Part shown: positions 1-25,646 of the stretch, piece by piece
Numbering within the stretch: position 1 is the stretch's first letter
Layout: the number at the start of each line of letters is the position of its first letter
From: Ochromonas danica
Taxonomy: Eukaryota > Sar > Chrysophyceae > Chromulinales > Chromulinaceae
Reading direction: 5' to 3'
NCBI GenBank assembly: GCA_015146655.1
Contig: VKHL01000232.1
Span: forward strand, 1-31,695
Length of the DNA: 31,695 bases
Notes under the pieces: generated by a model
Told to the model about the DNA's origin: nothing
Database searches by the model: none
Seen by the model: only the letters and a program-made list of their open reading frames with translations
Position numbers and translations under genes: made by a program

Positions 1-2830
1 GCTTTCTTCCACAAAGGAGAGAGTTGACTGTCCCTCTTTCTCTTTCCCCTTGTCTACTTGCGCTTCCTCGAAAGAGATCAGTGAAGCAGCAGAGGAAAAG
101 CCAAATACCGCTTTACTTCTCACATTTCTATAAACCTCATCATCATCTACTGGAGGAGGAACGTAGATAGATCGATATATTTCGTGCAGGCGATTAACTT
201 TGATGCGTGCTTCACTATTTCCTATCACCTTTTGCACAGTGTTTTGAATGGAATTAAAGGCTGTGGAATCGTTCAAATAGGCTGCTTTCGTCACTCCTTG
301 AAATCCTTGGCCAACAGATAAGCGAACAATAAAACGCAATGCAGTTGTTGGAGACAATGTCGGCTGACTTGATGGCTGCGTTGTAGGCTGACTGCTGGGC
401 TGAGCAGATGGTTGGGTGGTTGGTTGACTACTGGGCTGTCGAGTAGGCTGTGTGCTGGGTTGCGAAGATGGTTGTGTAGATGGTTGTGAAGTTGGTTGCG
501 TGGTGGGTTGTCCAGATGGTTGAGTAGTTGGTTGAGTTGTTGGCTGGCTGCTGGGTTGAGCGGTTGGTTGAGATGACGGTTGACTTGAAGGCTGCCCAGA
601 TGGTTGGGACGTCGGCTGAGTTGACGGTTGAGATGAAGGTTGTGTAGATGGTTGAGATGAAGGCTGGGTTGTTGGTTGCGTTGTTGGTTGCATCGTAGGC
701 TGACTGCTCGGTTGAGTTGTTGGCTGACTTGAAGGTTGCCGAGATGGCTGGGACGTTGGTTGGGAAGAAGGCTGAACTGAAGGTTGAGCTGAAGGTTGTG
801 TAGATGGTTGAGATGAAGGCTGGGCGGTTGGTTGAGTTGTCGGTTGAGCACTAGGCTGACTGCTCGGTTGGGTGGTTGGCTGACTTGAAGGTTGGCTAGA
901 GGGTTGAGTAGTTGGTTGCGACGTTGGCTGGCTTGAAGGCTGAGATGAAGGTTGTGTAGATGGTTTGGATGAAGGCTGACTGCTTGGTCGCGACGATGGC
1001 TGAGAAGAAGGTTGAGAGGAAGGTCGGCTAGATGGTTGACTTGTAGGCAGTCCACTAGGTTGTCCACTTGGTTGACTGGTGGGAGAGCCAGTTGGCTGAC
1101 CTGAAGGTTGGGTAGATGGAACGCTGGTGGGTTGTGACGACGGCTGTGAAGAAGGTTGAGCTGAAGGTTGACTGCTAGGATGAGAAGTCGGCTGTGACGA
1201 CGGTTGAGCTGAAGGTTGAGAAGAAGGTTGAGTAGAGGGATGGGATGTTGGCTGTAAACTCGGTTGCGAAGATGGTTGACCACTAGGCTGGCCACTGGGT
1301 TCGCTGGAAGGTTGAGTAGTTGGCTGTCCCGTTGGGATTGACGTTGGCTGAGTCGACGGCTGAGAAGAAGGCTGTGAAGATGGTTGGGATGATGGTCTTG
1401 AGGAAGGAATACCACTTGGCTGAGAAGAAGGAGAACTTGTGGGTTGTCCAGATGGCTCAGAAGATGGCTGAAAAGTCGGTTGGCCAGATGGAATAGCAGT
1501 TGGTTGAGTTGTTGGCTGCATCGAAGGTTGGCTGCTGGGTTGACTTGTTGGCCGACTTGATGGTTGAGATGAAGGTTGTGTAGATGGTTTGGATGAAGGC
1601 TGACTGCTTGGTCGCGAAGATGGCTGAGAAGAAGGTTGAGAGGAAGGTCGGCCAGATGGTTGGCTTGTAGGCAATCCACTAGGTTGTCCACTTGGTTGAC
1701 TGGTGGGAGAGCCAGTTGGCTGACCTGAAGGTTGGGCAGATGGAACGCTGGTGGGCTGTGAGGATGGCTGTGAAGAAGGTTGAGCTGAAGGTTGGCTGCT
1801 CGGTATAGCTGATGGTTGAACAGACGGTTGAGCTGAAGGCTGAGAGGTAGGTTGGGCAGATGGGTGACTAGACGGCTGAGAGCTGGGTTGAGAAGATGGT
1901 TGACCACTTGGCTGACCAGTCGGCTCGGAGGAAGGTTGAACAGATGGTTGGCTGCTTGGTTGAGTTGACGGTTGAGATGATGGCCGAGCGGAAGGTTGAG
2001 AGGTAGGTTGAGTAGATGGACAACTAGACGGTTGAGAGCTCGGTTGTGAGGAAGGCTGCGAACTGGGTTGAGATGAAGGTATTGAACTTGGTTGCTTTGT
2101 TGGTTGTGAGCTGGGTTGAGATGATGGTACTGCACTCGGCTGTGAGCTAGGCTGAGCAGAGGGTTGACTACTGGGACATGACGACGGCTGGCTACTGGGT
2201 TGAGTTGAGGGCTGAGAGGAAGGCACAGTAGACGGCTGAGACGAAGGCTGAGATGATGGTTGTGCAGACGGTTGGGATGAAGGCACAGCAGAAGGCTGAG
2301 ATGTTGGTTGCATTGAAGGTTGGCTGCTGGGTTGACCACTGGGCTGGCTTGACGGTTGAGTACTTGGCTGACCAGTAGGCTGAGCCGACGGCGCGGATGA
2401 TGGCTGGCTGCTGGGCTGAGATGAAGGCTGCGAAGAAGGTTGGCCTGACGGACAACTCGATGGTTGACTACTGGGACAAGAAGAGGGTTGACTGCTGGGC
2501 TGAGAAGAAGGCTGCATGGAAGGCTGGGAAGAGGGTTGACCTGTCGGCCAACTACTGGGTTGCCCAGAAGGCTGAGAGCTGGGCTGAGACGTTGGTCGAG
2601 CTGTTGGTTGCGAAGAAGGCTGTGAAGAAGGTCGAGATGAAGGCTGAGCAGAAGGCTGCTCGCTGGGTTGGGTACTCGGCTGGGAGCTGGGCTTCGCTGA
2701 AGGCTGGGAACTGGGTTGGCCTGTGGGTTGGCTGGAAGGCTGGGAACTCGGGATGGAGGAGGGCTGGTTGCTAGGCTGGGAGGATGGTTGCGAGGTTGGC
2801 TGACTTGACGGCTGAGCAGAGGGCTGTGAA
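1..2830. repeat. Left arm of inverted segmental duplication
   Basis: The reverse complement of this segment matches 11140-13064 of the plus-strand gene. Bases 2192-2774 match 11197-11779 without a visible length change, and base 1 pairs with 13064. The arm is about 906 bp longer than its partner: 888 bp (74 units of 12 bp) inside the stalk and 18 bp inside the ectodomain. Both arms are coding. Confidence 0.9.
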
Positions 2831-5252
2831 GATGGTTGAGCAGATGGTTGGGAAGAAGGTCGACTAGATGGTTGTGAAGATGGACGAGAGGAAGGCTGAG
2901 TTGATGGCTGAGAAGAAGGATGTGCAGATGGTTGGGAAGAAGGCTGTGCTGTGGGTTGGGACGTGGGTTGCGAAGATGGTTGTGAGGTTGGCTGGCCAGT
3001 AGGTTGAGATGATGGTTGAGAAGAAGGTTGTGTTGTAGGTCGTGCAGAAGGTTGTGTTGTTGGCTGAGTCGATGGTGATGTGGTGGGTTGAGTAGATGGC
3101 TGTGCGCTTGGTTGTGCTGTGGGCTGAGAAGATGGTTGGGATGTGGGTTGAGAAGATGGTTGAGAAGAGGGACGACTTGATGGTTGGGAAGATGGCTTCG
3201 ATGAAGGCTGAGTTGATGGCTGAGAAGAAGGGTGTGCAGACGGTTGGGAAGAAGGCTGTGTGCTTGGTTGCGCGGAAGGTTGAGAAGATGGTTGGGATGT
3301 GGGTTGAGAAGACGGTTGAGACGAAGGTAGGGAGGAAGGCTGTCGAGATGGTTGCGACGTCGGCTGAGTTGAAGGCTGAGAAGAAGGATGTGCAGACGGT
3401 TGGGAAGAAGGCTGTGATGTGGGTTGGGATGTAGGTTGCAAAGATGGTTGTGAGGTTGGCTGGCCAGTAGGTTGAGATGATGGTCGAGAGGAAGGTTGTG
3501 TTGTAGGTCGTGCAGAAGGTTGTGTTGTTGGCTGAGTAGATGGTGATGCAGTGGGTTGAGTAGATGGCTGTGCGCTTGGTTGTGCTGTGGGCTGAGAAGA
3601 TGGTTGGGATGTGGGTTGAGAAGATGGTTGAGAGGAAGGTCGACTTGATGGTTGCCGAGATGGTTGCGACGTCGGCTGTGTTGAAGGCTGAGAAGAAGGA
3701 TGTGCAGACGGTTGGGAAGAAGGCTGTGCTGTGGGTTGGGATGTAGGTTGCGAAGAAGGATGTGCAGACGGTTGAGAAGACGGTTGAGAGGAAGGTCGGG
3801 AGGAAGGCTGCGTTGTTGGTCCTGCAGAAGGTTGTGTTGTTGGCTGAGTAGATGGTGATGTGGTGGGTTGAGTAGACGGCTGTGCGCTGGGTTGTGCGGT
3901 AGGCTGAGCAGAGGGCTGTGAAGATGGTTGAGCAGACGGTTGGGAAGAAGGTCGACTAGATGGCTGTGAAGATGGACGAGAGGAAGGCTGAGTTGATGGC
4001 TGAGAAGAAGGATGTGCAGATGGTTGGGAAGAAGGCTGTGATGTGGGTTGGGATGTGGGTTGCGAAGATGGTTGTGAGGTTGGCTGGCCAGTAGGTTGAG
4101 ATGATGGTCGAGAGGAAGGTTGTGTCGTAGGTCGTGCAGAAGGTTGTGTTGTTGGCTGAGTAGATGGTGATGCTGAAGGCTGGCTTGAGGGTTGTTCGGT
4201 AGGCTTTGATGTTGGCTGAGTAGTGGGCCTGCTTGAAGGTTGGGTAGAGGGCTGGGAAGACGGTCTCGAAGAAGGCTGTGAAGAAGGACGCGAAGAAGGC
4301 TGGCTACTCGGCCGAGCTGATGGTTGGGCCGAAGGTTGCTTCGTGGGTTGAGCGGTTGGCTGTGTGGAAGGCGAGCTGGATGGTTGGGAAGAGGGTTGGG
4401 AAGAGGGTTGAGACGTTGGTGAAGTTGATGGTTGTCCACTAGGTTTGCCACTAGGATGCGAAGATGGCTGTGCTGAAGGCTTTGAGCTGGGCTGCAAAGA
4501 GGGTTGACTTGTTGGTGCAGATGTTGGCTGAGTTGATGGCTTTGACGTGGGGCGCCTGGTTGGCTCGGAACTTGGCTGAGAAGAGGGTTTACAACTTGGC
4601 TGTGAGCTTGGTTGTGCTGATGGTTGAGATGTTGGCAGAGAACTGGGCTGTGAGCTCGGTTTTGTGGATGGCTGACAGGTCGGCTTGTTGGAAGGTTGTG
4701 AAGTAGGTTGAGTAGAAGGCTTCAAAGAAGGCTGAGATGTGGGAGAACTGGTGGGTTGCCCAGAAGGTTGTACAGTGGGAGACTCGGTGGGCTGTCCGGA
4801 TGGTCTTGAAGAGGGCTGCAACGTCGGTTGAGATGATGGTTGAGTTGTTGGTTGAGACGTTGGCACTCCGCTTGGTTGCGAAGAAGGGCGAATTGTTGGT
4901 TGACTACTGGGTATCGCAGAGGGTTGACTCGTTGGTTGTGTGCTGGGATGATTTGAAGGTTGAGATGAAGGCCGCCCTGATGGCTGGGAAGGCTTGCTGG
5001 AAGGTTCCATGGTAGGCAAATCTGCTCCTGCCAATCGTTGTTCTGGTGAAAGTCAACATCACACAAACAGTTATAGGAACAGCTCAGAAAGGGTTTCAAA
5101 ATGCGCTTACTTGACCATATTCGATTTTGAATGTCTGAAGCATTCGCTAGTTCTCTCTGCTTGATCGCATTCTGTAGAATGTCAGCAGTTTTGACTGACT
5201 GAAGACCACAAGCAATCAATAGAATGACAAGTAGAAAGGTATCCACCTTCAT
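1..5252 (-). CDS. Giant QPS-repeat secreted or surface protein, 3' end outside window
   Basis: Two exons are read on the minus strand: 5252-5111 and 5042 to the window edge, with an intron at 5043-5110 (GTAAGC donor, CACCAG acceptor, phase 1). The reading frame stays consistent from 5042 to base 1 at every point I checked. The chosen start, MKVDTFLLVILLIACG, is a good signal peptide; an in-frame upstream ATG at 5345 would add 31 hydrophobic residues. After about 65 residues the protein becomes a Ser/Thr-X-Gln-Pro tetrapeptide stalk for about 1,570 residues. From about base 345 to the edge it becomes a folded segment starting LRFIVRLSVGQGFQG, the same ectodomain start as in the plus-strand neighbour. 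At least 1,728 residues lie in the window. No propeller domain is visible, unlike the neighbour. Role is unknown; an adhesive or cell-coat protein is inferred from the signal peptide and low-complexity stalk. Confidence 0.85.
345..5020 (-). repeat. 12-bp coding minisatellite (QPS stalk) of the minus-strand gene
   Basis: Tandem 12-bp units encode X-Q-P-S/T tetrapeptides almost without a break. Higher-order copies lie at multiples of 156 bp. The motif GGTCGTGCAGAAGG and its variants recur near 3039, 3507, 3819 and 4131 (steps 468, 312, 312). TGGGATGTGGGTTGAGAA recurs at 3137, 3293 and 3605 (steps 156, 312). A segment near 930-1115 recurs at about 1555-1745 (offset 624). Because every indel seen is a multiple of 12 bp, the frame is kept. 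Confidence 0.9.
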
Positions 5253-5586
5253 TCTTTTGATTGATGGTAATATACTACTGCTTTTCAAACAACTAATAAA
5301 GGATAATACGAAAAGAATTGAAGGCAATGATATCTTCGACTTCAATTAGTTTGATCGTTTAGTTTTTCGTTCTGAATTGTTCAAAAACCACCAGATGAAA
5401 CAACAGCCAAGACTGTAAAACTCACACAAAGCGATTACAAAAGGAAGAAAATGCTTGTTTTATCTTGAAATGAAAACCGAGGAAACCGCCCAACCACAGC
5501 GTTCGTTTTGTTTTTCGTCATCTTGTGAATCTAGACGACCTTTCAAAGTCTTTTCTTTATTGAATATTATATTGATAGTTAGATCG
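5253..5586. promoter_or_regulatory. Shared divergent promoter region of the two giant genes
   Basis: This gap separates the two start codons and must hold both promoters unless the longer upstream ATGs (5345 minus, 5470 plus) are used. AT-rich stretches occur around 5565-5605, including TATATATA-like sequence just upstream of and overlapping the plus start. I see no defined operator or element. Co-regulation of the pair is an inference from the head-to-head layout. Confidence 0.5.
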
Positions 5587-8500
5587 ATGCCTTCGTCTAT
5601 ATATATTCAATTGCTATCCATCAGTATATGGATAAATTTGCTTTGGTTATCATCGATAGCTTCATTCACTTTGGAGTCGACCGTTGATAACCCGCAACTA
5701 GATCCGATCGCTTCTAGCCGAGGCAAACACCGCATATACACGACAAAGATGTTTCCACAAGGTAAGCTGAGTGATGAAAGTAATGAAAAGCTGAGATTAC
5801 ACACTTAATTGTGCATTTTCGTAGAAAACTCCAGGCGACTGACTTCAGAACTGTCAGGAGAGTTTGTGATGGCCAAGAGCAACAACAAAACAGATTGGAC
5901 GTACACTGCAGTGTGCTATGTAGATAATGGTGAAGTACTAGCAGCAGGCTATCAAATCTCTGGTGGGTCTGTAATTCGTTCCACGGATTATGGCGATACA
6001 TGGACTACCATCGCAGACGAAAATAGTGTTTCAGGTCTCTTTGGTTTGGCCGTTAGAAGACTATCTGATTCAATAGTGCGTTATTTGGCATCAGATATTG
6101 ATGGTGTCATTTATTCGTATGATGGCTCTTCTTGGTCAGCTCTCGCCACCATGTCTGGAACTACGATTGGCTTGACCATTGGAAGTAATGGCAATGCATT
6201 TGCTTCTGGCTCAGGCGGATTTGTGGCAACTTCTTCGAATTCTTCTAGCTATGCCACTTGGACCACTGTCAGCCCATCTGGTACTAATTCAAATGACACA
6301 CTCTATGACGTCTCCAGTTTGGATGGCACCTATGTCATAACAGTGGGAACTTCAGGACATGTGTTCTACTCCTCTAACGCTGGATCTTCATGGACTGCTG
6401 GAAGTAGCGGTACCACCAACGTCATTTATTGCATTTCTCAGCTGTCCAATTCAGTTGCCATGATTGCTGGCGAGAAAGGGTATCTGGCTAAGACCACGGA
6501 TGGTGGAGCGACGTGGACGACCATGTCTGCATTCTCAAGCAGCTATACATCTCGCTTCCATGCCATCTCTATGCTGGATAGCTCTGTAGCTTATGTGGTA
6601 GCAAGTCCTGTATCATCTGGATCATCTGGTGGAGTTGTCTATGAGACATTGGATGGCGGCTCCACGTGGTATCTTGTTCAAAGCACGACAGCTTCTCTTT
6701 ACAGTATCAAAATAATCGATTACACCCATGGTGTTATTGGAGCAGGACCTGGTACTGCCATTCTTCGCATGGTACCAAGTAAGTGGTGTGGTTCTTCTAC
6801 CATTGGAGTGTGTTGTATATATTGGCTTGCTTCGTTGTTTGTTGTCTTGATGTGGCGAATATGTTCACGGCTGTATTCCTGCTTTGATGTGCTGCATACT
6901 TCCTCTTGCTGTTCTTTTAGCATTATTTGAAGGGTTTATCGCCAATACTAAATTTTTCACTTGCTTTCTGAATAGGTCCAACTGGTCAACCAACTCGTCA
7001 GCCCACTGGCCAGCCGTCTGGTCAGCCTTCGAGGCAGCCAACAAGACAACCAACGTCGCAACCTACCTCTGAACCAACATCTCAACCAAGTCGAAAACCT
7101 ACATCTCAACCTTCTGCTCAACCAAGTAGTCAGCCAAGTGGTCAACCAGTTGCTTACCCAACATCCATACCTTCCTCACAACCATCGGGTAAACCCAGCA
7201 GTCAACCTTCCGGACAACCTTCTTCGCAACCAACTAATCCTACAAGTCAGCCAACTGCAAATCCAACAAATCCAACGGCGCAGCCGACTAGTCGCCCTTC
7301 ACATAGCATGGTTCCTTCATCTTCCCCATCGTCAAGTGCTCCAAGCAGGCGTCCCTCCTCTTTTCCTTCTGGGCAACCTTCCTCTTTGCCGACTCAACCG
7401 ACGGGGCAACCCTCTTCGCAGCCCTCTTCGCAGCCGTCAGCAAGACCAAGTACTGTTCCAACAACACAACCTTCATCACAACCAACCACCCAGCCCTCTG
7501 TTCAACCAAGTGCCATGCCATCGGCTCAGCCTAGCTCTCAGCCGTCTTCTCAACCAGTCGGTGCACCAACATCTATTCCCAGTGGTCAACCGAGCGGGCA
7601 GCCAAGTGGAAAGCCCTCGGCTCAACCGTCGAGTTGTCCCAGTGGTCAGCCGTCTACTCAACCTTCAGGATGCCCCACAAGCCAACCTACGGGTCAGCCA
7701 ACAGCTCAGCCAGTTGCTGCTCCCACCAACATTCCCTCATCACAGCCCTCTGGTCAACCTTCTTCTCGGCCTTCTGCACAGCCTAGCGAGAGACCCTCTT
7801 CTCAACCAACTTCAAAACCTTCCACCCAACCAAGTTCGAAACCTTCATCTCAACCTTCAAACCAGCCAACAGGTCAGCCTTCTGGCCAACCATCCGGCCA
7901 ACCCTCCGGTCAACCTTCGTCTCGACCTTCCGCACAACCGAGTGGGAGACCCTCTTCTCAACCGACATCAAAACCCTCCACCCAACCAAGCTCGCAACCA
8001 TCATCCCAACCTTCAAACCAGCCTTCTGCACAGCCTTCTGGCCAACCATCCGGCCAACCCTCCGGTCAACCTTCCTCTCGACCTTCTGCGCAGCCCAGTG
8101 GGAGACCCTCTTCTCAACCGACATCAAAACCTTCAAACCAACCAAGCTCGCAACCATCATCCCAACCTTCGAGTCAGCCTTCTGCACAGCCTTCCGGCCA
8201 ACCATCTGGCCAACCCTCTGGTCAACCTTCCTCTCGACCTTCCGCACAGCCGAGTGGGAGGCCCTCCTCTCAACCGACATCAAAACCCTCCACCCAACCA
8301 AGCTCGCAACCTTCATCCCAACCTTCAAACCAGCCAACAGGTCAGCCTTCTGGCCAACCATCTGGTCAACCCTCCAGTCAACCTTCGTCTCGACCTTCTG
8401 CACAGCCTAGTGGGAGACCCTCCTCTCAACCGACATCAAAACCCTCCACCCAACCAAGCTCGCAACCTTCATCCCAACCTTCAAACCAGCCAACAGGTCA

Positions 8501-11500
8501 GCCTTCTGGCCAACCATCTGGTCAACCCTCCAGTCAACCTTCGTCTCGACCTTCTGCACAGCCTAGTGGGAGACCCTCCTCTCAACCGACATCAAAACCC
8601 TCCACCCAACCAAGCTCGCAACCTTCATCCCAACCTTCAAACCAGCCAACAGGTCAGCCTTCTGGCCAACCATCTGGTCAACCCTCCAGTCAACCTTCGT
8701 CTCGACCTTCTGCACAGCCTAGTGGGAGACCCTCCTCTCAACCGACATCAAAACCCTCCACCCAACCAAGCTCGCAACCTTCATCCCAACCTTCAAACCA
8801 GCCAACAGGTCAGCCTTCTGGCCAACCATCTGGTCAACCCTCCAGTCAACCTTCGTCTCGACCTTCTGCACAGCCTAGTGGGAGACCCTCCTCTCAACCG
8901 ACATCAAAACCCTCCACCCAACCAAGCTCGCAACCTTCATCCCAACCTTCAAACCAGCCAACAGGTCAGCCTTCTGGCCAACCATCTGGTCAACCCTCCA
9001 GTCAACCTTCGTCTCGACCTTCTGCACAGCCTAGTGGGAGACCCTCCTCTCAACCAAGCTCGCAACCTTCATCCCAGCCTTCTTCGTTCCCATCTTCGCA
9101 GCCTTCGAGCCAGCCGAGCTCCAAGCCAAGTGGTCAACCAAGTGGATGTCCAACAGGACAGCCTTCTATTAGGCCTTCTGCTAGACCGAGCGGTCAGCCG
9201 AGTGGTCAGCCATCTTCTGTCCCTTCATGCCAGCCTTCGTCACGACCAACCGCGAATCCAACGAACCCTACGTCTCACCCCACTGGCCAGCCATCCACTC
9301 AGCCGTCTTCTTTCCCCTCTTCTCAACCTTCAGGTCATCCCAGTGGTCAACCTTCAGCTCAACCTTCGTCTTATCCTTCCAGTCAGCCATCAGCACAACC
9401 TAGTAGTTGCCCCTCGACTGTTCCCACAAGCATGCCTACGGGCTTTGTTTATCCAGGTGTTTGGTGGTCTATCCAGGCTGGTTTAACTTCAGATGCTTTC
9501 TTGGGAGCTACATGGCTCAATAGTTTGAATTGTGTTTTAGTTGGAAGAGCTTTGCTGGATGGAGTAATAGTGGCAAGCTTGGATCGTGGAGTCAGTTGGA
9601 CTCGTACATTGGTTACCAATTCACCTTTCTCGGACGTCACATCTTATGATCCTGGATCAGGTACAACCTATATTCTAGCGCTGTCGTTAGGTGGGTTGGT
9701 ATACTGCTCAAGAAATGGAGGGATCACGTGGACACAATGCACAACATCTGCCATGGGTTCCTTATTTTATGGTATTGGAGTCGGCTCGAATGGTGTAGCT
9801 TATGCAGTTGGCAACGCTGGACAAGTGTACACTTCGAGCTATTCTTCTTCTTATGTGACATGGACTGCGAAGTCTCTTTCTGTTTCTTCCCCTCCTCGCC
9901 TGAATGCCGTGGCAACTTATGATGGTGTTGTTGTCTACGTGGCGGGTGTGTCTGGTAATGTCTATAAGTCTACCAATGCAGGAACTTCTTGGACTGCCTT
10001 GACGAAGACGACATACATCAACATTTATGCAATCTCTGTGTCGAGCAATGTTGATGTCTTGTTCACCGGGGCGGCAAGAATGGGAAGGATTAGTGCAGAT
10101 GGGGGAAATAGTTGGACTAAGTTGAATATATTTCCCAGTGGTGGAGCTAATGCCAGCACCTATCCTCCTCATTCTGCTCATATGCTGACATCCGCTGTGT
10201 CGTTTTGCGGAGGATTAAGTGGAGCAGTGTACAAAACTGTGAATGGTGGTTTCAAGTGGAATCCCGAGTCGTTGGTAGTTGCAAGTTCTGGTCAGTCTAT
10301 TTACAGCTTGAATATGTATTCGACGAATGTTGGCGTGGCAGGAGACAGCATAGGAAATGCTTATCTCTTGACACCAGCACCCACAGCTATGCCCACCAGC
10401 CAGCCTTCAGGCCAGCCCAGTGGTCAGCCATCAAGTCAACCCACTGGCCAACCTACTGGACTTCCGTCTACCCAGCCTTCTTCACTTCCATCATCACAGC
10501 CATCTGGACAGCCCACCGTTCGGCCTTCAAGTCAACCGAGCAGTCAGCCTTCCGGTTCACCCGCAAGCCAACCAACTTCTGTCCCATCTTCTCAGCCAAC
10601 AGGTCAACCAAGCAGTTCTCCAACAACGCAACCATCAACACAACCCAGCTCGATGCCTTCTTCCCAGCCTAGTGCCAGACCTTCTTCGCAACCAAGTAGC
10701 TACCCGACAAGTCAACCCTCTTCACAGCCGTCGGCCTGTCCTTCCTCTCAACCTTCATCTTCTCCTTCCTCTCAACCTTCAGGTCAACCGTCAGCTCAGC
10801 CTTCAGGTCAACCCTCTGGAAAGCCATCGTCTCAACCATCTACGCAACCTAGTGCAGTTCCTTCTTCACAACCAAGTGCGCTTCCATCCGCCCAACCTTC
10901 CTCTGTACCATCATCCCAGCCAACGGCATGCCCTTCAGCACAACCGTCCTCCTATCCTTCCTCTCAACCATCAAGTGAGCCATCTAGCCAACCCACGGGT
11001 AACCCCAGCGGGCAACCTACCAATCAGCCGTCCTCACAACCAACTTCTCAGCCTTCTTGTCAGCCTACGTCCGAACCCACTTCTCAACCCTCCTCACGAC
11101 CCTCTTCCCAACCATCTAGTCGACCTTCCTCTCAACCATCTTCACAGCCCTCTGCTCAGCCGTCAAGTCAGCCAACCTCGCAACCATCCTCCCAGCCTAG
11201 CAACCAGCCCTCCTCCATCCCGAGTTCCCAGCCTTCCAGCCAACCCACAGGCCAACCCAGTTCCCAGCCTTCAGCGAAGCCCAGCTCCCAGCCGAGTACC
11301 CAACCCAGCGAGCAGCCTTCTGCTCAGCCTTCATCTCGACCTTCTTCACAGCCTTCTTCGCAACCAACAGCTCGACCAACGTCTCAGCCCAGCTCTCAGC
11401 CTTCTGGGCAACCCAGTAGTTGGCCGACAGGTCAACCCTCTTCCCAGCCTTCCATGCAGCCTTCTTCTCAGCCCAGCAGTCAACCCTCTTCTTGTCCCAG

Positions 11501-14500
11501 TAGTCAACCATCGAGTTGTCCGTCAGGCCAACCTTCTTCGCAGCCTTCATCTCAGCCCAGCAGCCAGCCATCATCCGCGCCGTCGGCTCAGCCTACTGGT
11601 CAGCCAAGTACTCAACCGTCAAGCCAGCCCAGTGGTCAACCCAGCAGCCAACCTTCAATGCAACCAACATCTCAGCCTTCTGCTGTGCCTTCATCCCAAC
11701 CGTCTGCACAACCATCATCTCAGCCTTCGTCTCAGCCGTCTACTGTGCCTTCCTCTCAGCCCTCAACTCAACCCAGTAGCCAGCCGTCGTCATGTCCCAG
11801 TAGTCAACCCTCTGCTCAGCCTAGCTCACAGCCGAGTGCAGTACCATCATCTCAACCGTCATCACGTCCTTCCGGTCAACCATCTTCTCAGCCATCAACT
11901 CAACCAAGCAGCCAACCATCCGTTCAACCTTCCTCCATGCCGACTGGTCAGCCCAGTGGTCAACCATCTTCTCAACCAAGCAGCCAACCTTCCACTGTGC
12001 CATCTGCTCAACCCAGTGCCGAACCTTCATCTCAACCATCTGTTCAACCATCAGCTATACCGAGCAGTCAACCTTCTACCCAACCTTCTTCCGAGCCAAG
12101 TAGTCAGCCCACCAGCGTTCCATCTACCCAACCTTCAGGTCAGCCAACTGGCTCTCCCACCGGTCAACCAAGTGGACAACCTAGTGGACTGCCTACAAGT
12201 CAACCATCTAGCCGACCTTCCTCTCAACCTTCTTCTCAGCCATCGTCGCGACCAAGCAGTCAGCCTTCATCCAAACCATCTACACAACCTTCATCTCAAC
12301 CATCAAGTCGGCCAACGTCGCAACCAACTACTCAGCCGTCTAGCCAACCTTCAAGTCAGCCAACAACTCAACCGAGCAGTCAGCCTACGATGCAACCAAC
12401 AACGCAACCAACAACCCAGCCTTCATCTCAACCATCTACACAACCTTCATCTCAACCGTCAACTCAGCCGACGTCCCAACCATCTGGGCAGCCTTCAAGT
12501 CAACCGTCATCTCAACCAACCGCTCAACCCAGCAGCCAGCCAACAACTCAACCAACTACTCAACCATCTGGACAACCCACCACGCAACCAACTTCACAAC
12601 CATCTACACAACCATCTTCGCAACCCAGCACACAGCCTACTCGACAGCCCAGTAGTCAACCAACCACCCAACCATCTGCTCAGCCCAGCAGTCAGCCTAC
12701 AACGCAGCCATCAAGTCAGCCGACATTGTCTCCAACAACTGCATTGCGTTTTATTGTTCGCTTATCTGTTGGTCAAGGATTTCAAGGAGTGACGAAAGCA
12801 GCCTATTCGAATGATTCCACAGCCTTTGATGCCATTCAAAGTACAATACAAAAGGTGATAGGAAGTGGCGAAGCACGCATCAAAGTTAACCGCTGGAAGG
12901 AAATATATCGATCTATATCTATCTCTACCTTGCAAGAGGAGGACGTTTCTTCAAACATGTTGTCATCTTCCTCTGCTGCTTCACTGTTCTCTTTCGAGGA
13001 AGCGCAAGTAGACAAGGGGAAAGAGAAAGAGGGACAGTCAACTCTCTCCTTTGTGGAAGAAAGCATACAGACTGAAGATGTCATAGACGTGCCTGTTCTA
13101 GTCATGAACTACACACTTTCCTTCTATGCAGGAGATATAGCTCCTTTGGCCAACGCTTCCTTTGCCGTCCGGGTAGTCTCTGAGCGCTTGCAAGCTGCCA
13201 CTTCGAGTGGTGAATATGATGTGATCCTTCGAGAGGAAGCTGTATCTCGCAACAGTGTTTCTCTGGCATCTGCTTCAGTTGCTAATCGTACACTCACATT
13301 TAATGGTTATGTGTCAGCTTTTGTTCATTCTGGCCATCCCACAAGCCAGCCATCTGGTCAGCCTTCGAGTTCTCCGAGCAGTCAGCCATCTAGCCAACCC
13401 ACATCTTCACCGACATTAGTGCCAGCCACGAGGTGGAGAAATCGTTTACAAGAGGAGCTGCACGCCCGATACGATGAAGAGAAGCATCGCAACGGTCGCA
13501 GCATCTATAGCGAGTTGATGGTGTGGGGTGAAGTACTCTATGGAGGGCAAGACGAATGGTCACACTTCCTATTGAAGGATGTGCGCTTGGCTCTGAACAG
13601 TCGGAAGCTTTCGGGGTTGTCCTTGATTCTGGCTAATGGCTCTGACACGGCCGCAGCCGTCGAAGTCAGTTGCACTGAGGAGACTGCACTAGACTATCTT
13701 TCCGATGCAGTTCAGAATCCGCTATGGAACTTGCTATCGTCTTCTCCTACCACTTCTCCCTTCACGACCACGACAGAGGTGAAGAGCATCCTTTGTGGTT
13801 CTGATCGGTGGGCTATACAGTATTGTGCTACTGCACAGCAGTATGAGAGCAGCACTACATCGAGTAGTGACTATTACAGCAGTATCATCTATCCCTCTCT
13901 GTGCGTGAACTGCAGCAGTCCATGCAATCAAACATGTCAGTCCAGTGTGGTATCTTCGTCTGGTCGCATGAGTGGTCGATTGCCTGTGAATGAGAGCTGT
14001 CCAGAGAGTGGAGGCTCTTATTTCAAGATCTTGACGTTCTCCACGGAGGAGGAAGAGCAGAGTGGTCGCTACTTTGTGGTCACTTTCTCAACCTTATGGG
14101 GAGCTGTTTTGCTGTTGTGCTGTTGGAATCTCTTCCGAGGTGGCACAGATCGTGTGAGCTCGACATGGCGGGTAGTGGAGGAAAGTTCTGGTCAAGTGAA
14201 GAAAGCGTTCTGGAAGCTGAAGCGGATGAGAGCGTCCTCACAGATCTCACCCATCTCGTCACATTCCGATGCGATCCAGGCAGTGCAGAAGTTCTTTGCT
14301 TGGTGCTCAGAGCCTTCTTATCCAGTGGTCAGCTCCTTTCTTCACACCTTGTTAAGCCAACATCGAGATCTCAAGGTCTGGCAAAGTCGCTCACAAGGCC
14401 CTATCTATGCACTGTACACAGCCAGCCATCTGATTTGCTATGCTATCATCCTGGCGGGATTGTTGCAGTTGATCTATCCCATGGACCATGGACTGTGTTC

Positions 14501-16970
14501 AGAGCAGAAGACAGAAGCGGACTGTGAGGATGTGCGAGCTGCATTGCTGGGTCATCGCCATCTGTGTGTTTGGTCTCGCGCAGGCCAGCCGCAGGCGGCA
14601 ATCTATCCTGACCCTGCCATCTTTCAGACGCATTGCTACTGGCGAGACGAAGCCATTTCCTCTGCGGAAGCCTTCTATCTGGCATTGATAGCGATGTCGA
14701 TCATGCTTCCTGTGCGAGTCCTTTTCCTGGAGAAAGCTCTGCGAAGGTGGCTGCTGCCTCCCACGAACTGGGGAGAGCCTGCTGATTCGAGTGCTGTGGT
14801 TCTTCCCCCAGTTGCAACGGTAGGACGAGGAGCAGAGGCACATGGAGGGAGTAGTCCAAGGCGCAACCAGGTCTCTCCCTTCTCTGCTCCGGTGGGTTTG
14901 TCTCTGGCCGATCCTCGTCATGTCCCTCTCAATCTCAATCTCCAATTTGATGGAGGAGCGTCCCCCAGTCGACCGCAAAGTCGTGGAGATGTTTCGATGA
15001 TGAAGGTGGCACCTTTCGATGAAGACCTAGTGGGTGGAGTGAGAGCACCTTCCATGGATCTGCATGTGCTACAAAGTCTGACCCCTGAGGAGTACTTTCA
15101 GTACGACTTCGAGATTCGCTCCCCAACCAAGGCTGCAAGTGGCGTGATGAGGAAAGGTGGTGGGGCAGCCAGCAAGCTGCCTGCCTTGCCGATCGAGAGT
15201 CGTCTCTTGCCAAGGCAAGCTCCAGCAGTTTCTGGCGATCTCTTCGAGACGTTCTTCAACGCTTTGCTTCGCTATCGCAATGCTCTTCCCAATCCTGTGG
15301 AGCAGCAGAAGGTGAGCAGTCAATGGGGGTTGAATGGCAACGCTTTTGATCGCGACCTGCTCATGTCTCGCGACTTCGTGTGGAAGGTGCGCCACTTCCC
15401 ACAGGTCGGTTATCAACCTGCGGCTGATTACTTTGCAGACTGTCTGGAGCAGACCGGGCGCGAAATACAGCAGGAGGTGCAACAAGGAGATCGCTATGCA
15501 TCAACAGCTCAGCTTCGTCCTCTCTGGCTGTTTGTGATGGATATGATGGGGTGGAACAAGTTGGAATGCCAAATATTCCGCCGTCGCTCTTATCGTTTGT
15601 TGCATCCCTACGCCGCTCTTTCCGTCTATATCAAGGCCTCTGTGCTCTTCGTCTGTCTGGCGACGAATGCAGTGTTGATCTACCTGTGCTGGCAGCTTCT
15701 TTCCCAGCAGTCACAGCAACAGGTGCGCAACTGGCTTGTGACTGTTTTGATCGCTGTGTTCGGGGATGTGGTCATTGTGGAGAATGTGGACAATGCCTGG
15801 TGTCACGCCCTCCTACCCAACCTTTGCATGGCACTCTATGACCAAGTGCAGATCGATGTCTTGCGAATCATTCGAGCTTGTGAACTAGCCGAGACTGCTC
15901 CGTTGCCCAATCGCACAAGCTCTGTGCAGGCAGCGGTGGCATCCGAAGTGGCGGGAGTCGCTCAGGCTGTGTCAGCTGCTCTGCGCAAGATCTCTCCTCG
16001 CAAAGTCCTTCCTCATCCTGCTCAACCTTCAGCCTTCGACTTCGATTCCTCGCACTACTTCTTTGTCTCGAAGCATTATCTCAAGAAGCGTTATGCAGGT
16101 CGCGTGGTCAATGACATTGTCTATAAGTTTCGTACTCACGGTCCTGAGCGCCTTGTGTTGGGACCTTGGCAGGCGAATCCAGGCTCCCATGCTGCTGCTG
16201 CTGCCAATGCCACTGCCACTCATGCTCCAGGTCTCCCACTACAACCAGCAGCAGGTGGAAGTGGAAGTGGAGGGTGGTGGCAGCGAATGACGGGGCAGTG
16301 GGGTCATCGCCTTGGCCAAGGCCTCGGGTACTGGGGCAAGGTCTTTGGTTGCCTCCCACTGTCTTGTCAGAGAATCATGCTGGCCACAGCGATCATCGGT
16401 GTGGGTTTCTTGGCAGTCTTTCTGGCAAGTAGTGGAGGCAGAGAGATCTCACTCTCGATTCTGTGGCAGGTTGGAGTCGCCTTTCTCGCTCTGTGGTTCC
16501 TAGCCTGGGTCCTGTATATGATCTACCGCTACAATGAGTCCTTCCGCATTTCCTTCGATCGTTTGCTGCGAAGATCTGGAGGGAGAAGAGCAGATGTCAT
16601 GGACCGGCAGCTGCAGCAGCAATCTTCCTTCCGCCTCTCCTCTCGCTTCTCTCAGCGGGCAGGATCGATGCGAGGGTCGGCCATGTCTGCAGTCAGTGCC
16701 ATGAGTGGTGCTAGTCGACCCAGTTCGATGCAGTCTGCACGGTCAGTGCATCGCCTTTCTCGTAAAGAAGCACATGATATGGTACAGATGCTTGCAGACA
16801 ACAGCACTGCTCGGCAAGCATTGGAAATGACCGCTTGGGAACTGTCTGATAGTGATGACGAGAATGAGATCGAAGCTCTGCGGCGTCAATTACAAGATAT
16901 TGAAGGTGGAAGAGTTGTTCTACCTGGTGAAGTGGTGAAGGAAGGAAGCACTTCACAAGGTCCACGATAA
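5587..16970 (+). CDS. Giant propeller-stalk-propeller-stalk multi-pass membrane protein
   Basis: Three exons, 5587-5761, 5825-6778 and 6976-16970, join in frame to 3,707 residues (introns GTAAGC...TTCGTAG and GTAAGT...GAATAG, both phase 1). The order is: signal peptide (1 to about 29); beta-propeller 1 (about 75-376) with Asp-box blades such as STDYGDTW, SSNAGSSW, TTDGGATW; QPS stalk 1 (378-1198); propeller 2 (about 1200-1510) with SLDRGVSW, SRNGGITW, STNAGTSW, SADGGNSW; QPS stalk 2 (1512-2290); ectodomain (about 2298-2735) with a short QPS insert near 2500 and a Cys-rich patch CVNCSSPCNQTC; then about seven hydrophobic segments near 2740, 2855, 2945, 3255, 3295, 3510 and 3540, and a Ser/Arg-rich acidic tail. 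The blades resemble BNR/Ycf48/sortilin propellers. A surface adhesin or receptor is inferred; the ligand is unknown. An upstream in-frame ATG at 5470 exists but weakens the signal peptide. Confidence 0.85.
6978..9440 (+). repeat. QPS stalk 1, 12-bp coding minisatellite
   Basis: This stretch begins directly after the second intron and encodes uninterrupted X-Q/R/K-P-S/T tetrapeptides up to the start of propeller 2. The codons vary (CAA/CAG, CCN, TCN/AGY) outside the 156-bp array, so the stalk is old there and kept for its protein sequence. It contains the recently amplified array described separately. Confidence 0.95.
7760..9058 (+). repeat. Tandem array of 156-bp higher-order units, about 8 copies
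   Basis: The anchor TGGCCAACC (CGGCC in one copy) recurs at 7883, 8039, 8195, 8351, 8507, 8663, 8819 and 8975, exactly 156 bp apart. Each unit is 13 tetrapeptides (52 residues) with internal variants in a fixed order, including SRPS, GRPS, SKPS and NQPT. The copies from 8351 onward look base-for-base identical, while the first three carry differences, which points to recent unequal exchange at the 3' side. The last copy is truncated near 9058. Confidence 0.95.
10390..12735 (+). repeat. QPS stalk 2, 12-bp coding minisatellite
   Basis: This stretch encodes X-Q-P-S/T tetrapeptides from the end of propeller 2 to the ectodomain that starts LRFIVRL. The proximal part, up to about 11140, is specific to this gene. 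The distal part is nearly identical to the inverted copy in the minus-strand gene. It contains one copy of the segment at 12119-12301 that the minus-strand gene carries twice. Confidence 0.93.
11140..13064. repeat. Right arm of inverted segmental duplication
   Basis: This is the partner of 1-2830 in opposite orientation, about 8.3 kb away. Identity begins abruptly near 11140 within the stalk and runs into the ectodomain. It is broken by diverged patches, for example about 12915-12975 against about 90-170. The true outer end of the duplication is unknown, because the left copy is cut by the window edge at the base matching 13064. Confidence 0.9.
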
Positions 16971-19760: not shown

Positions 19761-20295
19761 TCTTTCTTGATATAGTCTCTCTCTCTCAAAGTAGTACAAG
19801 TAGTGATAGTGAAGGAAATGGTATTTGTTGTGATTCTTGTCTCAACAGAGCATGTCATGGAAATCGACTGGACGAGAAGGTTAACATCACAACCACTCAC
19901 CACGCACTGTAACAATATTCGAACTCTCTCTACTCACCCTCTACTGTATAAAAACATAAGATAATATAAATATAAGAAGATACAGTGACGATGGATGATT
20001 CTTATATAAGACCAAAATCTGCTATCTATAATGATTATTACAGTAAATTAGCGCTGAAAGAAAGTAGTCAAATTGATTGATTGATTAGTACTCCTTTGCG
20101 AGGGAAATGACTGTTAACTTAATAAGAGAGTCCCTATCAACAAGAGCTCCTCAACAAGTGAATGAGAAGAACGAAATACACACTCTCTCTATATTTTGCA
20201 TTCACAGCCATCAATTAAATCGATTGACTCCTTAAATAAACTACTACCATTAAGACCACCTAGAAGACCTATCCTATCCTATTCTATCCTGTCAA
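19761..20295. promoter_or_regulatory. Divergent promoter gap between the Has1-type and sirtuin genes
   Basis: Both flanking genes start here on opposite strands. The sequence is AT-rich with short repeats (TTGATTGATTGATTAG near 20075, TCCTATCCTATTCTATCCTG near 20272). I see no protein-coding content and no firm promoter element. Confidence 0.45.
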
Positions 20296-21561
20296 ATGTC
20301 TCATTTTACAATCACACCGAAAACAGATTGTCCTCATATTAATCAACAAGCAGGATATACCTTATCAATTGAAGAATTCTTTGGTATTCTTGATCTTTCC
20401 TCACATGAAATACAAGGTCATTGTGAACAATGTCTAAGTGACGTAGAGAATTGGGTGTGTCTGGGATGCTGTCAGATCTATTGTTCACGTTTTGTTCATG
20501 GCCACATGGCAGAGCATGCTGAACAATCTGGACCTGGTCATACTGTAGCATTTAGTCTAACTGATGCTTCAACATGGTGTTATCAATGTGATAGTTATAT
20601 TACTAACTTTAAATTAGCATTATTATCTTCTTATTTTAGTCAAATTAAGTTTCCAGACGATCAACAACAACATCAACAACATAATAACGACGACGATGAT
20701 GATGAGAGTGATGGAGTAGTAGTCGAGACAGCACTACCTTCTTCTTCTTCTTCCTTCCCATCGTTCACACGAGATGATCTAGTACAAGGATTGTCTCAGA
20801 AGACCTTCCAACGTGTCGCTATCCTAACTGGTGCGGGTATTTCTGTTGCTGCTGGTATTCCAGATTTTCGTACACCTGGTACTGGATTATATGCACAAGT
20901 TGCACGATTAGGTCTACCTTTCCCTGAGGCAATCTTTAGCTTAGACTTCTTCTTAGCTAATCCACAACCATTTTATACGATTGCTGAAACTTTCTTAACG
21001 TATCAGACATATCCTGTTCAAGCACATTATTTCATAAAGAAGATAGAAGATGAAGGAATGTTATTATATAACTATACACAGAATATTGATGGTTTGGAAT
21101 TAGAAGCTGGATTATCATTAGAGAAAGTAATTCAAGCACATGGACATATGAGAACAATACGTTGTGTTCAATGTAAGAAAGAACAAGATCGACAACAATT
21201 TGATCAAGCTATTACCAAACAAGAAGTTCTATATTGTTCATCATGTCATGGTTTAGTTAAACCTGATATTGTCTTCTTTGGTGAAAGCTTACCAGAGATC
21301 TTCCATGAGAAGTTTGATGAGATTCAAGAAGCTGATCTTGTCATTGTCATGGGGACATCTTTGAAAGTCTATCCTTTTGCTTTCTTATTGACTACATTAT
21401 CTGAAGATGTGCCAATTGTCTTGATCAATCGAGAGAATCCAGGCATTGCTAGAGAGAACTTTCTCTTCTTGGCAGGAGAGATTGAAGAGACTGTTAGCAA
21501 GCTGGCAGAAGATCTGCATTGGACATTGGGTAGTGGAGAGAAGAAGAAAGTTGATGGATGA
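20296..21561 (+). CDS. Sirtuin (NAD-dependent protein deacylase) with N-terminal ZnF-UBP domain
   Basis: A single exon encodes 421 residues. Residues about 12-105 form a ubiquitin-binding ZnF-UBP domain: CPHI, CEQC, WVCLGCCQIYC, RFVHGHMAEH, GHTVAFSL and WCYQCDSYI match the spacing seen in HDAC6 and USP proteins. After an Asp/Gln/Ser-rich linker (about 118-160) comes the Sir2 catalytic domain: GAGISVAAGIPDFRTP (about 179-194), TQNIDGLE, catalytic His in QAHGHMRT (about 281), zinc ligands CVQC and CSSC, KPDIVFFGESLP, and MGTSLKVYPF. This is the class I (SIRT1/2/3-like) type and appears catalytically complete. The family removes acetyl or acyl groups from lysine using NAD. The fused finger suggests it docks on free ubiquitin C-termini. 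It converges with the DEX1-like gene downstream. Confidence 0.95.
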   Translation: MSHFTITPKTDCPHINQQAGYTLSIEEFFGILDLSSHEIQGHCEQCLSDVENWVCLGCCQIYCSRFVHGHMAEHAEQSGPGHTVAFSLTDASTWCYQCDSYITNFKLALLSSYFSQIKFPDDQQQHQQHNNDDDDDESDGVVVETALPSSSSSFPSFTRDDLVQGLSQKTFQRVAILTGAGISVAAGIPDFRTPGTGLYAQVARLGLPFPEAIFSLDFFLANPQPFYTIAETFLTYQTYPVQAHYFIKKIEDEGMLLYNYTQNIDGLELEAGLSLEKVIQAHGHMRTIRCVQCKKEQDRQQFDQAITKQEVLYCSSCHGLVKPDIVFFGESLPEIFHEKFDEIQEADLVIVMGTSLKVYPFAFLLTTLSEDVPIVLINRENPGIARENFLFLAGEIEETVSKLAEDLHWTLGSGEKKKVDG

Positions 21562-21808: not shown

Positions 21809-24800
21809 CTAAAGGTTCTGTATCTTGAGAAAGGTAAGACTAGCAAAGAGAAGAACTGGCGCTAAGATAAAGTACTTGATCCATCGATACCGACTAGTTA
21901 GATCGAGATGAACCAAGAGTTGATCTTCCCCAATAGTGTAATGGCTATCCACAACCTTCACCACTAGCACGAGATCAGCATGACCATAATGTCCAAAGGA
22001 AGCTGCAGCCAGAAGTTCACGCAAAGGCCACTGAGCCACATAGTCACCTGGTCGATCATAATGGCCAAGGAAAAGCGGAGTTGTGACATCATTGGTGCTT
22101 CGACTAATGGTGACTGTGTACGGACTTCGACCAACGGGAATATTTTCACCATGATCGCTCTTTGCTGAGTGGAGACTATCTGCAATAGTGAAGCGCAGCG
22201 ACACTGGGCTTTCTTCATCTTCATCGTTGATGAAGGATGGATGCTGCCATCGTAGCTTCTCTTCATAGCTAATCAACAAGTCGAGAGAGCGGAAGAGATA
22301 GTGACTGGCTTGACGATGACGTGGCATAGAGTTCCAAATACGATCATTTTCAGCTGGTACTGTAGTAGAATAGATGGCTAGATCACCTTCTAATGTGGTG
22401 GTAATAAGGTCTAAATAGCCATCTGATGTAACATCATCAACCAAGACAGGAGTGTAGGACTGAGCTCCTAGATCGATGGATTGAAGGCAGATCTGTGAGG
22501 TTGTTGTTGTTGATGAGCCAGCCTTCTGTGATCTGGATTTAGTCGAAGACTTGGTCAAAGGTGGGGGAGGGCCTGTAGGCAGCTGCACAATATAAAGATG
22601 ACCTTCAAATGTTGTCACTAGCATATGTACACCATCGTCTCGGTCAGGTTGACTGTTGCTTGGCAGTATCTCATCAGCGGTCATTGACTTCCCACGTAAC
22701 ATGCTGCTATTGCTATTACTGAAGCTTGAAGTGGCCTGCTGCTGCTTGGTCAACAATGAAGAGATCGACTTCGAGGAGGATGTCATAGAACTACTAGCAT
22801 CATGATGTCGACTGCTAAGGGAAGTGAGAACGATTGGTGCGGAAATGATCGCTTCAGCAGGTAGAAAGAAATTGTACAAGATCTTTCCACTATCACCCGA
22901 TAGCACATAAATGACACTCTTCCCCTTCCCTCCTTCACCCTCCAGATAGACCGAGCAAACAATATCCAAGATACCATCACCATTAATATCAGCTAAGGTA
23001 GGAGTATAGTAGATGCTACCAGGCAAAGCTACATCATAAAGAATCTCAGCAGCGGCATTGAAAACTACAACATTTCCATTCAAATCACTTGCTATTACTT
23101 CCAAGTCACTTCCTCCTAACAGATTAGCCGTGACTAAAGACGTGGTTATGGCATGTAATTGAATAGGGAATCCATGGCGAGGATAGCCACTATCAGCATC
23201 GATCACATAGACCATCCCTAAGGCTGTCCCAACCAAAACTTCCAATCTAGATCAAAACCCATCACATCACATTACTTCAAACTATACCATTGCCATACAT
23301 AACAACAACAAGTAGTGTATACAGTACAGTACCTGCCATCTCCATCTAAATCAGCAACAGTTGGTTGAGCGTAGATCTTGGCCTGTAAACTAAACCACAC
23401 AACAGATATAAACAAATCAAATCAGATTAAAACAAATCAAAGCAGAAGAAACAAGTAGCAACCTACACCTACCCTGTGAGATTGGTAGAGAGATCGAGAT
23501 GAACTTGCCAACGATATTTTTGATTTTGTAGATCAAAACAAAGTAAAGCACTCGCATAATACATGGCAGGATTGATATCTTTAGGATAGTGATGAGCATG
23601 TTCAGGGTCGATATAATAGCTCACAGGAAAGATCACCTATTTTACATACAGTAGAGTGTTTACAATCAATACACATGAGAACACGGTTAGGTATACTATA
23701 CTATACTATACTATACTATACTATACTATACACTGTACTGTACCTCCATGTGATTGTCTCCATCAATATCTGCCATAGTAGCAGAGGCTAAGATATGTGG
23801 TTCAATCGCAACAAAGCCTTCATTTTCATCAAATCCTAACCCTCCTCCTCCTCCTGCTGCTCCATCTCCTCCATCGCCTTCAGCCATTCCATTACTTCCA
23901 CCCATCCCTCTTCGTTCCATATAATACAATAAATGATCATCCGTTGCTCCATGAACACGTCCAGCAGCACCATAGCCATAGGCATAGTGCATACCTTCTT
24001 CACTAAATGGTTCATCTGGTCCTTCATATCCTTCTGTTACATAGCCATCCTCTCCTTCTCCTTCTCCTTGACCTTGTCCTTGTGTACTATGGCCTTCTTC
24101 TTCTTCACCATGATTGACTAGTAGCAGATGATGATCTTCTTCTTCTTCTTCTTCCTCTTCAGATAGACGACGACGTTGACTAGGTAGATCATCATTACCA
24201 CTACCACTACCACTACCTCGTCGTCGTCTATTGTTATCAATATTATCATAGTTATTGTTATTGTTATTCGATTTTGATGTTTTAGTTGATGTCAAAGGAT
24301 CAAGTTTAGCTTCTTGTTGATGAACATTAGCACCAGCATTAGCATTAACGTCATCCTTATTATTACCTTTATTGCCTTTATTATTATTTTCGTTCTTTTG
24401 TAAGATGGAAGCATCGACTTCAATCTGATTAAAGAACGAAATCAAATGATAAGCAGCACCATATCGATGACCATCTTCTTCTCTTACATTTTCACTTAAG
24501 GCAATCCAATCCTTCCTCACTCTTAATCGAGGTAAGGCAATATGATAATCTTCCAGATATTCTCCTACTTCACCAACACGTATAAAATACAAATTACCAT
24601 TATAATCTAATGCTCCAATATCATTTTGACCATCACCATCAATATCATAAATTAATGGACTAGAATAAAAGCGATTTAATTGACCAAAACTAATAGGCCA
24701 TCCTATAGGACGATGACCATCATGACCTTCAATGAGTTCAATCGTATTAAATAGACTATTGAAGAAGATTGACTTATGGTCATGTGACCCACTACTACTA

Positions 24801-25249
24801 CTACTGCTACTAGTACTGCTACTACTACTAGCATAGGAATAGAATGTGACAGGTGGAGTGTAGATTGGCTGATCCACTGTAGTATGCCATTCTAGATGGA
24901 AGTCAATATTACAAGATAACGTATCTTTCAGTTCTAATATTTTCACATTTTCTAAAGGATTAACTTCACTTCCCCCTCCTTCTCCTCCCCCCTCACTATT
25001 ATTATTACCATGACTTGTATTTGATGTACTACTAGTAGTAGTACTAGGAGTGTATCTTGGTAGATGTTTATGACGAGGGATATGATATATTTTACCAGGT
25101 TGATAATTATATCCACGTAAGAAATCTGGTATGAGATCTTCTAAAGCTCCATCAGGAGTTAAAGGGACTGTAATAGGACTACTAGTAAGAAGGGTAGCAG
25201 AGAGTAATGTCTGGAAAAAGACTACCAAGTAGTGAATTTTCTTCATCAT
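21809..25249 (-). CDS. DEX1-like FG-GAP/integrin-alpha-like membrane protein
   Basis: Four exons, 25249-23744, 23636-23473, 23389-23333 and 23246-21809, join in frame to 1,054 residues (introns 107, 83 and 86 bp). The order is: signal peptide (MMKKIHYLVVFFQTLLSATL); FG-GAP-type calcium-binding-like loops DIDGDGQND, DIDGDNHME, DLDGDGRLE, DINGDGILD and DVTSDGYLD; a lumenal domain; and a C-terminal membrane helix (WIKYFILAPVLLFASLTFL). The spliced stretch LSTNLTGLQAKIYAQPTVAD aligns without gaps to plant DEFECTIVE IN EXINE FORMATION 1 as I recall it, which supports the exon joins. Plant DEX1 is about 900 residues; the excess here is an Asn/Glu/Gly-rich insert at about 283-475. In plants the protein acts in the secretory pathway in pollen wall patterning. 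A cell-covering role here is only an inference. An in-frame TTG upstream of the ATG was not chosen. Confidence 0.9.
23692..23732. repeat. (CTATA)n pentanucleotide repeat in intron
   Basis: About eight tandem CTATA units lie within intron 1 of the DEX1-like gene, close to the donor site. The tract is likely length-polymorphic. Confidence 0.9.
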
Positions 25250-25646
25250 TCCTTTTCTTTCTCTGTTTGTCTTTCTTGTCACCAACTCAACTCAAAACCT
25301 CTCCCACTGGGTAAACTCTGCTTTTACGACTTAAAACTCGTATATTCTCCGGTTAACTTAAGATGTACTTAGCACATCGGACAACCTTTCACCTTATACT
25401 GTAGATTGATTGGTTAGGGTGAAGACCAACTTAATGAAAGTCATCAAGGCTATAATCAATCTAATTATGGGTAAACCATGTGGTAAGAGTAGAATTAACA
25501 ATAGTTTATCTTAAGTTAATGACTCTGTGCTAACCAATAGCAACAACAACTGAAGCGAAGTGACAGGTGATGGTAGTCCATTTGACACCTCCACAATACA
25601 ACAAACAAATGCGCCCTCTCTCTCCTTCATTCTCTCTCTTTCTCTC
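25250..25646. promoter_or_regulatory. Upstream region of the DEX1-like gene
   Basis: No coding content is supported. The gap lies between the DEX1-like start and the Mpo1-like stop, both on the minus strand. It holds a telomere-like GGTTAGGGTG at about 25411-25420 and several TTAACTTAAG/CTTAAGTTAA-like stretches. It presumably contains the DEX1-like promoter and the Mpo1-like 3' UTR. Confidence 0.4.

Follow-up and report, generated by a model that had tools for sequence, protein, structure and literature searches.

Patchwise sequence identity between two inverted giant genes of Ochromonas danica suggests gene conversion

This study concerned a contig of the chrysophyte Ochromonas danica that carries two giant, divergently arranged genes. 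The window analysed was the whole of this contig (C232, 31,695 bp), one of 337 contigs in an assembly of 31.19 Mb; the genome gave 47 chlorophyll-binding matches, as in a photosynthetic eukaryote. Gene A lies on the minus strand, with its ATG at 5252, and extends for at least 5.25 kb before being truncated by the contig end at position 1, while gene B, on the plus strand, starts with the ATG at 5587 and ends with a stop at 16970, a length of about 11.4 kb. The preliminary description had recognised this head-to-head pair, and its estimate of a 330-bp gap between the genes agrees, within rounding, with the 334 bp measured here. The introns of both genes were predicted from GT..AG ends and reading-frame phase, and the resulting proteins comprised 3,707 residues for B and 1,728 residues for A up to the contig end, with 0 inner stops. 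The region of the gap (5200-5700) contained 1 predicted promoter site against 1.7 expected, under a bacterial-type model that is uninformative on eukaryotic promoters. The features of the two genes are as follows.

1 to 5042, minus strand: gene A exon 2, a frame encoding the stalk followed by the first part of the ectodomain, still open where the contig ends
5111 to 5252, minus strand: gene A exon 1, with the ATG at 5252 and a signal-peptide-like start, MKVDTFLLVILLIACGLQSVKTAD; the intron that follows it (5110-5043) was predicted from GT..AG ends and phase
5253 to 5586, no strand: intergenic gap between the divergent genes A and B, 334 bp between ATGs
5587 to 5761, plus strand: gene B exon 1, with a signal-peptide-like start, MPSSIYIQLLSISIWINLLWLSSIASF; splice sites predicted
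5825 to 6778, plus strand: gene B exon 2, BNR/YCF48-like propeller 1 (Pfam, 5836-6775)
6976 to 16970, plus strand: gene B exon 3, encoding stalk 1, propeller 2, stalk 2, the ectodomain, 7 hydrophobic segments, a cytosolic tail and the stop
7743 to 9055, plus strand: 156-bp tandem array in stalk 1 of gene B, with 13 four-residue units per copy (repeat analysis)
9519 to 10409, plus strand: propeller 2 of gene B (Pfam PSII_BNR, 6.2e-8), including a 386-bp exact tract shared with a third gene, C, on contig C180

The stalk of gene A is a single uninterrupted run of 387 four-residue units of the pattern P[STV]xx, and in the stalks of gene B the runs of four-residue units reach 181 and 155. Propeller 1 of B (5836-6775) matched the Pfam families PSII_BNR (5e-10) and Sortilin-Vps10 (3.9e-10); an AlphaFold model of this propeller, made with no alignment, had a mean pLDDT of 35 and was set aside. 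A PDB search at E 1 with a query from gene B (P0002) gave OCM3 (9ufe, E 0.0098) as its sole match, over residues 95-150, a stalk-like stretch. The membrane part of gene A would lie beyond the contig. A fragment on another contig (C7:171818-172351) is 76-78% like the C-terminal region of B, contains stops and extends about 95 bp beyond the B stop, and is probably a pseudogene relic. Within the window, two successive frames with FG-GAP repeats occupy 21809-25285 on the minus strand, near the giant genes (the second scoring below the Pfam cut-off), and a single frame at 20296-21561 on the plus strand combines a ubiquitin-type zinc finger (zf-UBP) with a Sir2 domain.

The membrane part of gene B relates it to a family of genes carrying the REJ domain. 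The REJ profile (PF02010) matched 38 places in the genome, some of which share a frame; none of the 14 control genomes gave a match. Among the scanned paralogs, REJ was detected in those on contigs C9, C285, C180, C302 and C282. The membrane part of B aligned with the REJ gene on C9 at 25% identity (P0002 residues 465-935, E 8e-10), the hydrophobic segments of the two are similarly spaced, and an alignment of four family members (A1) showed 22-24% identity. When P0002 was scanned against Pfam at E 0.1, no REJ domain was detected in the ectodomain of B, the only hit being a PT repeat below the cut-off. Because its membrane part matches a REJ gene but its ectodomain lacks a REJ match, gene B is best described, at the level of sequence, as a distant relative of the REJ (polycystin-1) genes and not as a member of them. 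At the same Pfam threshold B had no match to a polycystin-type channel, PLAT or GPS, and the A1 profile had no PDB match at E 1. The resemblance to REJ/polycystin-1-like proteins therefore lies in the REJ domain (PF02010) and multiple hydrophobic segments carried by the paralogs in this genome, whereas B has no detectable REJ but does have propeller caps and long stalks rich in Pro, and no channel was found in it by sequence. The type of cap is not constant across the family: BNR-type propellers occur in B and C, while the C9 paralog (292000-301999, P0003) has an NHL-type propeller (Pfam NHL, 1.1e-11; PDB teneurin-like protein, 3.3e-28). Single uninterrupted frames combining stalk and REJ were seen on C138 (4443-27353, minus strand, 7,637 residues) and on C180 (19701-41006, plus strand, 7,102 residues). 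A second gene on C302, which lies downstream of a REJ gene, has a stalk with exact direct repeats of 360-bp period (11467-13057). In Ectocarpus, Esi0130_0068 is presented as a gene with REJ, GPS and a polycystin channel, and as a candidate male reproductive gene under positive selection (PMC4700764). Purely by analogy, a recognition or adhesion role may be proposed for proteins of the A/B type. Judged by titles, the listed papers combining the REJ domain with gene conversion concerned human PKD diagnostics, and no title among those listed dealt with the A/B gene family.

The distal parts of genes A and B form an inverted repeat, in which A 2840-1 (an arm of 2,840 bp) corresponds to B 11131-13064 (an arm of 1,934 bp, inside the long exon). 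The shared segment had been described as almost identical; the inverted repeat was recovered, but identity proved to be restricted to tracts, and the patches between them are diverged. The components of the repeat are listed below.

A 2114 to 2840 (minus) and B 11131 to 11857 (plus): 727-bp exact tract (exact-match comparison)
A 941 to 1076 (minus) and B 12163 to 12298 (plus): 136-bp exact tract (exact-match comparison)
A 311 to 738 (minus) and B 12345 to 12772 (plus): 428-bp exact tract (exact-match comparison)
A 1 to 77 (minus) and B 12988 to 13064 (plus): 77-bp exact tract at the contig end (exact-match comparison), probably an assembly-graph overlap
923 to 1939, minus strand: repeat in direct orientation within the A stalk, with an offset of 624 bp (1939-1547 resembles 1315-923 at 87%)
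78 to 310, minus strand: diverged ectodomain start of A, strongly diverged from B, with 18 bp of gaps
12773 to 12987, plus strand: diverged ectodomain start of B, the counterpart of A 310-78

Exact in-register tracts of at least 77 bp account for 1,368 of the 1,934 bases of the B arm, and an off-register exact match of 71 bp lies between repeats (A1617-1547 = B12246-12316). Between the exact tracts, the stalk of A is 888 bp longer than that of B. Other stalk DNA in the genome was mostly 61-70% identical, with short matches of up to 85%, among the matches listed, so that only the long tracts of high identity are informative. A 656-bp ungapped block contained 35 mismatches, and its 428-bp clean run was equalled in 0 of 20,000 shuffles; 142 consecutive third positions in this block are identical. 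For a 202-bp block, clustering was not significant when all sites were considered (1,079 of 20,000 shuffles) and significant at third positions (8 of 20,000).

The long exact tracts, and the internal repeat of A, could be explained by one recent event that duplicated the 3' half in inverted orientation (or duplicated a whole gene, its front being later replaced), followed only by turnover of stalk repeats and fast change at the ectodomain start. Other pairs of equal-scoring genes, inverted or tandem, occur in the genome and are in keeping with such an event. This explanation fits poorly, however, because the silent changes are just as patchy: the 727-bp tract has no difference at any of its 242 third positions, while the ectodomain start gave a dS of 0.265 and a dN of 0.159 (99 codons, from about A 310 to the contig end), and all of the exact tracts (727, 428, 136 and 77 bp) adjoin sequence with this dS. 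A lone duplication is thus decidedly unlikely. No further copy of the arms that could be used to polarise events was found in the assembly.

Gene C consists of the 7,102-residue exon on C180 (19701-41006) and a propeller exon upstream. In B coordinates, the identity between B and C was 95% over 5902-7232, 96% over 7491-7867 and 90% over 8834-10682. The last of these blocks includes an exact tract of 386 bp (B 9645-10030) that was equalled in 0 of 5,000 shuffles; the block 5902-7232 had no excess identical run (1,491 of 5,000 shuffles). Propeller 1 of B and C gave a dN/dS of 0.26, and the adjoining intron is identical at 196 of 201 positions. Between A and C there was no exact match of at least 60 bp. 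Since the front of B is C-like and its back A-like, while A and C share no such match, gene B is, as read from these alignments, a mosaic. The earlier proposal that segments are exchanged between A and B gains support from this mosaic identity, which extends likewise to B and the third gene.

The length differences in the stalks mostly follow a twelve-bp step. Within the stalk, the A-B offset changes by 108, 624 and 156 bp, all three multiples of 12 and the largest equal to the offset of the direct repeat in A, and the B-C jumps between blocks (252 and 1,092 bp) are also both multiples of 12. The shifts that are not multiples of 12 were of 18 bp (A-B, in the non-repetitive ectodomain) and of 3 and 9 bp (B-C, inside blocks). 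Most stalk length changes preserve both frame and register, and the common register means that exchanges and unequal pairing leave the reading frame intact.

Patchy interlocus gene conversion between the inverted paralogs is the best explanation of this pattern, and one that we regard as probable, if not strongly so. The near-identical tracts have abrupt borders and include silent sites, a pattern that is characteristic of conversion but is subject to assembly smoothing. The B-C block without an excess run, the A-B block that was significant at third positions only and the B-C shifts of 3 and 9 bp weigh against it.

Inverted, near-identical neighbours recur in the genome, or in its assembly. 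The clearest is a tail-to-tail pair of REJ genes (C285:1-17150) with arms of 7,451 bp that are 99.6% identical, with 33 clustered mismatches, identical runs of 2,461, 1,297 and 2,681 bp, and C-termini that diverge abruptly; it repeats the pattern of the A/B arms and in this respect speaks for conversion. On C56, opposed REJ domains at 121908-123275 (plus) and 129142-130509 (minus) have identical HMM scores and spans, and these domain scores make them possibly another near-identical inverted pair. A head-to-head pair of light-harvesting genes on C166 (19037-19441, minus, and 19945-20349, plus) was recognised by equal family scores only; from this pair, opposed twin genes may not be limited to surface proteins. 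Contig C153 carries two tandem REJ domains with near-equal scores. As inverted pairs recur (on C285, and on C56 and C166 by equal scores), the layout is not special to this surface protein.

The main rival to conversion is an effect of the assembly, in which moderately diverged arms were merged by the assembler, so that the identical tracts, and possibly the assignment of flanks to genes, would partly be artefacts. Several observations at contig ends bear on it. C232 begins with the same 77 bases as B 12988-13064, and C180 begins with those of B 16737-16813; each match ends exactly at 77. Eleven contig ends were checked, and an exact 77-bp overlap, resembling the signature of an assembly graph, was present at three (the left ends of C232, C180 and C302, the last with a sequence different from that of B). 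The left end of C282 had an overlap of 57 bp and its right end one of 374 bp (a tandem array), the two ends of C285 matched each other across all 400 bases tested, and 4 of the 11 ends had no second copy in the assembly. The first 195 bases of C180 terminate a paralogous frame, in register. From the behaviour of assemblers in general, we take the 77-bp overlaps to reflect a k-mer length of 77, which suggests that the assembly was graph-built with k=77 and that the following segment forms a repeat edge that two paths enter and two paths leave but that was used once.

12988 to 16813, plus strand: repeat (3,826 bp) that was probably collapsed and appears a single time, within gene B (from the 77-bp contig-end matches)

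With this repeat placed only once, the missing 3' part of gene A should be near-identical to that of B, and the arrangement suggests that A continues via a copy of the edge into C180. A near-identical A/B segment of this length, as implied by both contig breaks, also speaks for conversion. No second full copy of B 13065 to 16736 was found in the 337 contigs; the idea that the 3' end of A is present elsewhere as a full copy was rejected accordingly, and its absence is in line with merging by the assembler. Graph assemblers remove small bubbles, so isolated differences between copies can vanish. None of the 33 mismatches of the C285 pair stood alone with more than 77 bp clear to each side, and every mismatch in the A/B blocks has another mismatch or a diverged edge close by; this absence of isolated mismatches fits smoothing as well as it does conversion. 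The effect of smoothing was therefore simulated on tracts 428 to 3,826 bp long, and 308 bp was assumed as the bubble limit. The probability of a clean tract was at most 0.044 at 2% divergence and 0.16-0.20 at 1%, so under that assumption smoothing hides about 1-2% of divergence, and not the dS of the adjacent sequence. Moreover, the assembly retained two copies despite identical tracts of 727 and 2,681 bp. Smoothing may exaggerate the identity of the arms, but we consider it unlikely to account for the pattern as a whole.

The inverted layout also raises, as the preliminary description noted, the possibility of inversion. In such a switch, crossover between the arms would flip the inner 8.3 kb, so that two membrane modules would trade their promoters, signal peptides and caps. 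Both arms are long, inverted and in frame, so a swap would leave both genes open; if C180 adjoins C232, a flip would also put the C-like 5' half of B on the strand of gene C, as in an ancestral tandem pair. Against this, a single assembly presents one arrangement only, and arm identity alone does not demonstrate inversion. A crossover between the arms flips the inner segment without making the arms alike, so their likeness points to conversion or recent duplication and not to inversion. Flipping is highly improbable as the explanation, and no finding at the locus requires it; the shared halves look like the product of repeated copying between duplicates rather than a proven genetic switch.

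Conversion between inverted duplicates has precedents in other systems. In C. elegans, hsp16 and hsp70-7/hsp70-8 are described as inverted neighbours for whose high identity conversion was favoured (PMC3966223). Genes A and B resemble the paralogs treated in that report in their opposed arrangement (head-to-head there or tail-to-tail) and high identity, but differ from the hsp pairs in that the putative conversion is confined to the distal half, that the genes are giant and rich in repeats, and that a third gene resembles the proximal half. The palindromes of mammalian sex chromosomes, as defined in a report that also treats X-Y conversion (PMC3308322), likewise have inverted arms of high identity flanking a unique spacer, whereas the A/B arms are 2-3 kb as assembled, patchy and within coding exons. 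The vls antigenic-variation cassettes of Borrelia, as presented in PMC11499132, share with A/B the segmental exchange in a surface-protein gene; at A/B, by contrast, no silent cassettes or single expression site were recognised, the frame of B is intact and that of A is open to the contig end. Conversion from arm to arm is known in the mammalian palindromes.

Genes A and B are best read as two members of a large family of giant, putative surface proteins in a photosynthetic protist. In both, a signal-peptide-like start is followed by a long stalk of the Ser/Thr-Pro kind that keeps strictly to a four-residue (12-bp) register, and B carries two BNR-type caps as well. If gene conversion is the process, as we infer, their inverted C-terminal modules would have been homogenised patchwise by interlocus conversion while the N-terminal parts remained different, and the N-terminal part of B would likewise have exchanged sequence with gene C. 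The frame-safe register would allow different caps to be retained on one common membrane module. A bolder extension sees the locus as a cassette for active exchange within a family of giant REJ-related receptors. Its 12-bp-register stalks would then serve as frame-proof recombination zones, where crossover or conversion between inverted arms repeatedly combines common membrane modules with varied promoters and propeller caps, and the recurring inverted pairs (C232, C285 and probably C56) would represent a general architecture of diversification; this we regard as speculative and quite improbable.

A practical consequence is that assemblies can lose one copy of such genes, as the C-terminal half of A is apparently missing for being too like that of B. 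If the mosaic is real, the locus makes modular shuffling testable in giant surface receptors of an alga, receptors distantly related to polycystin-1/REJ proteins. Such receptors would be candidates for cell or gamete recognition, and the repeat stalk itself would be a zone in which sequence can be exchanged without loss of frame.
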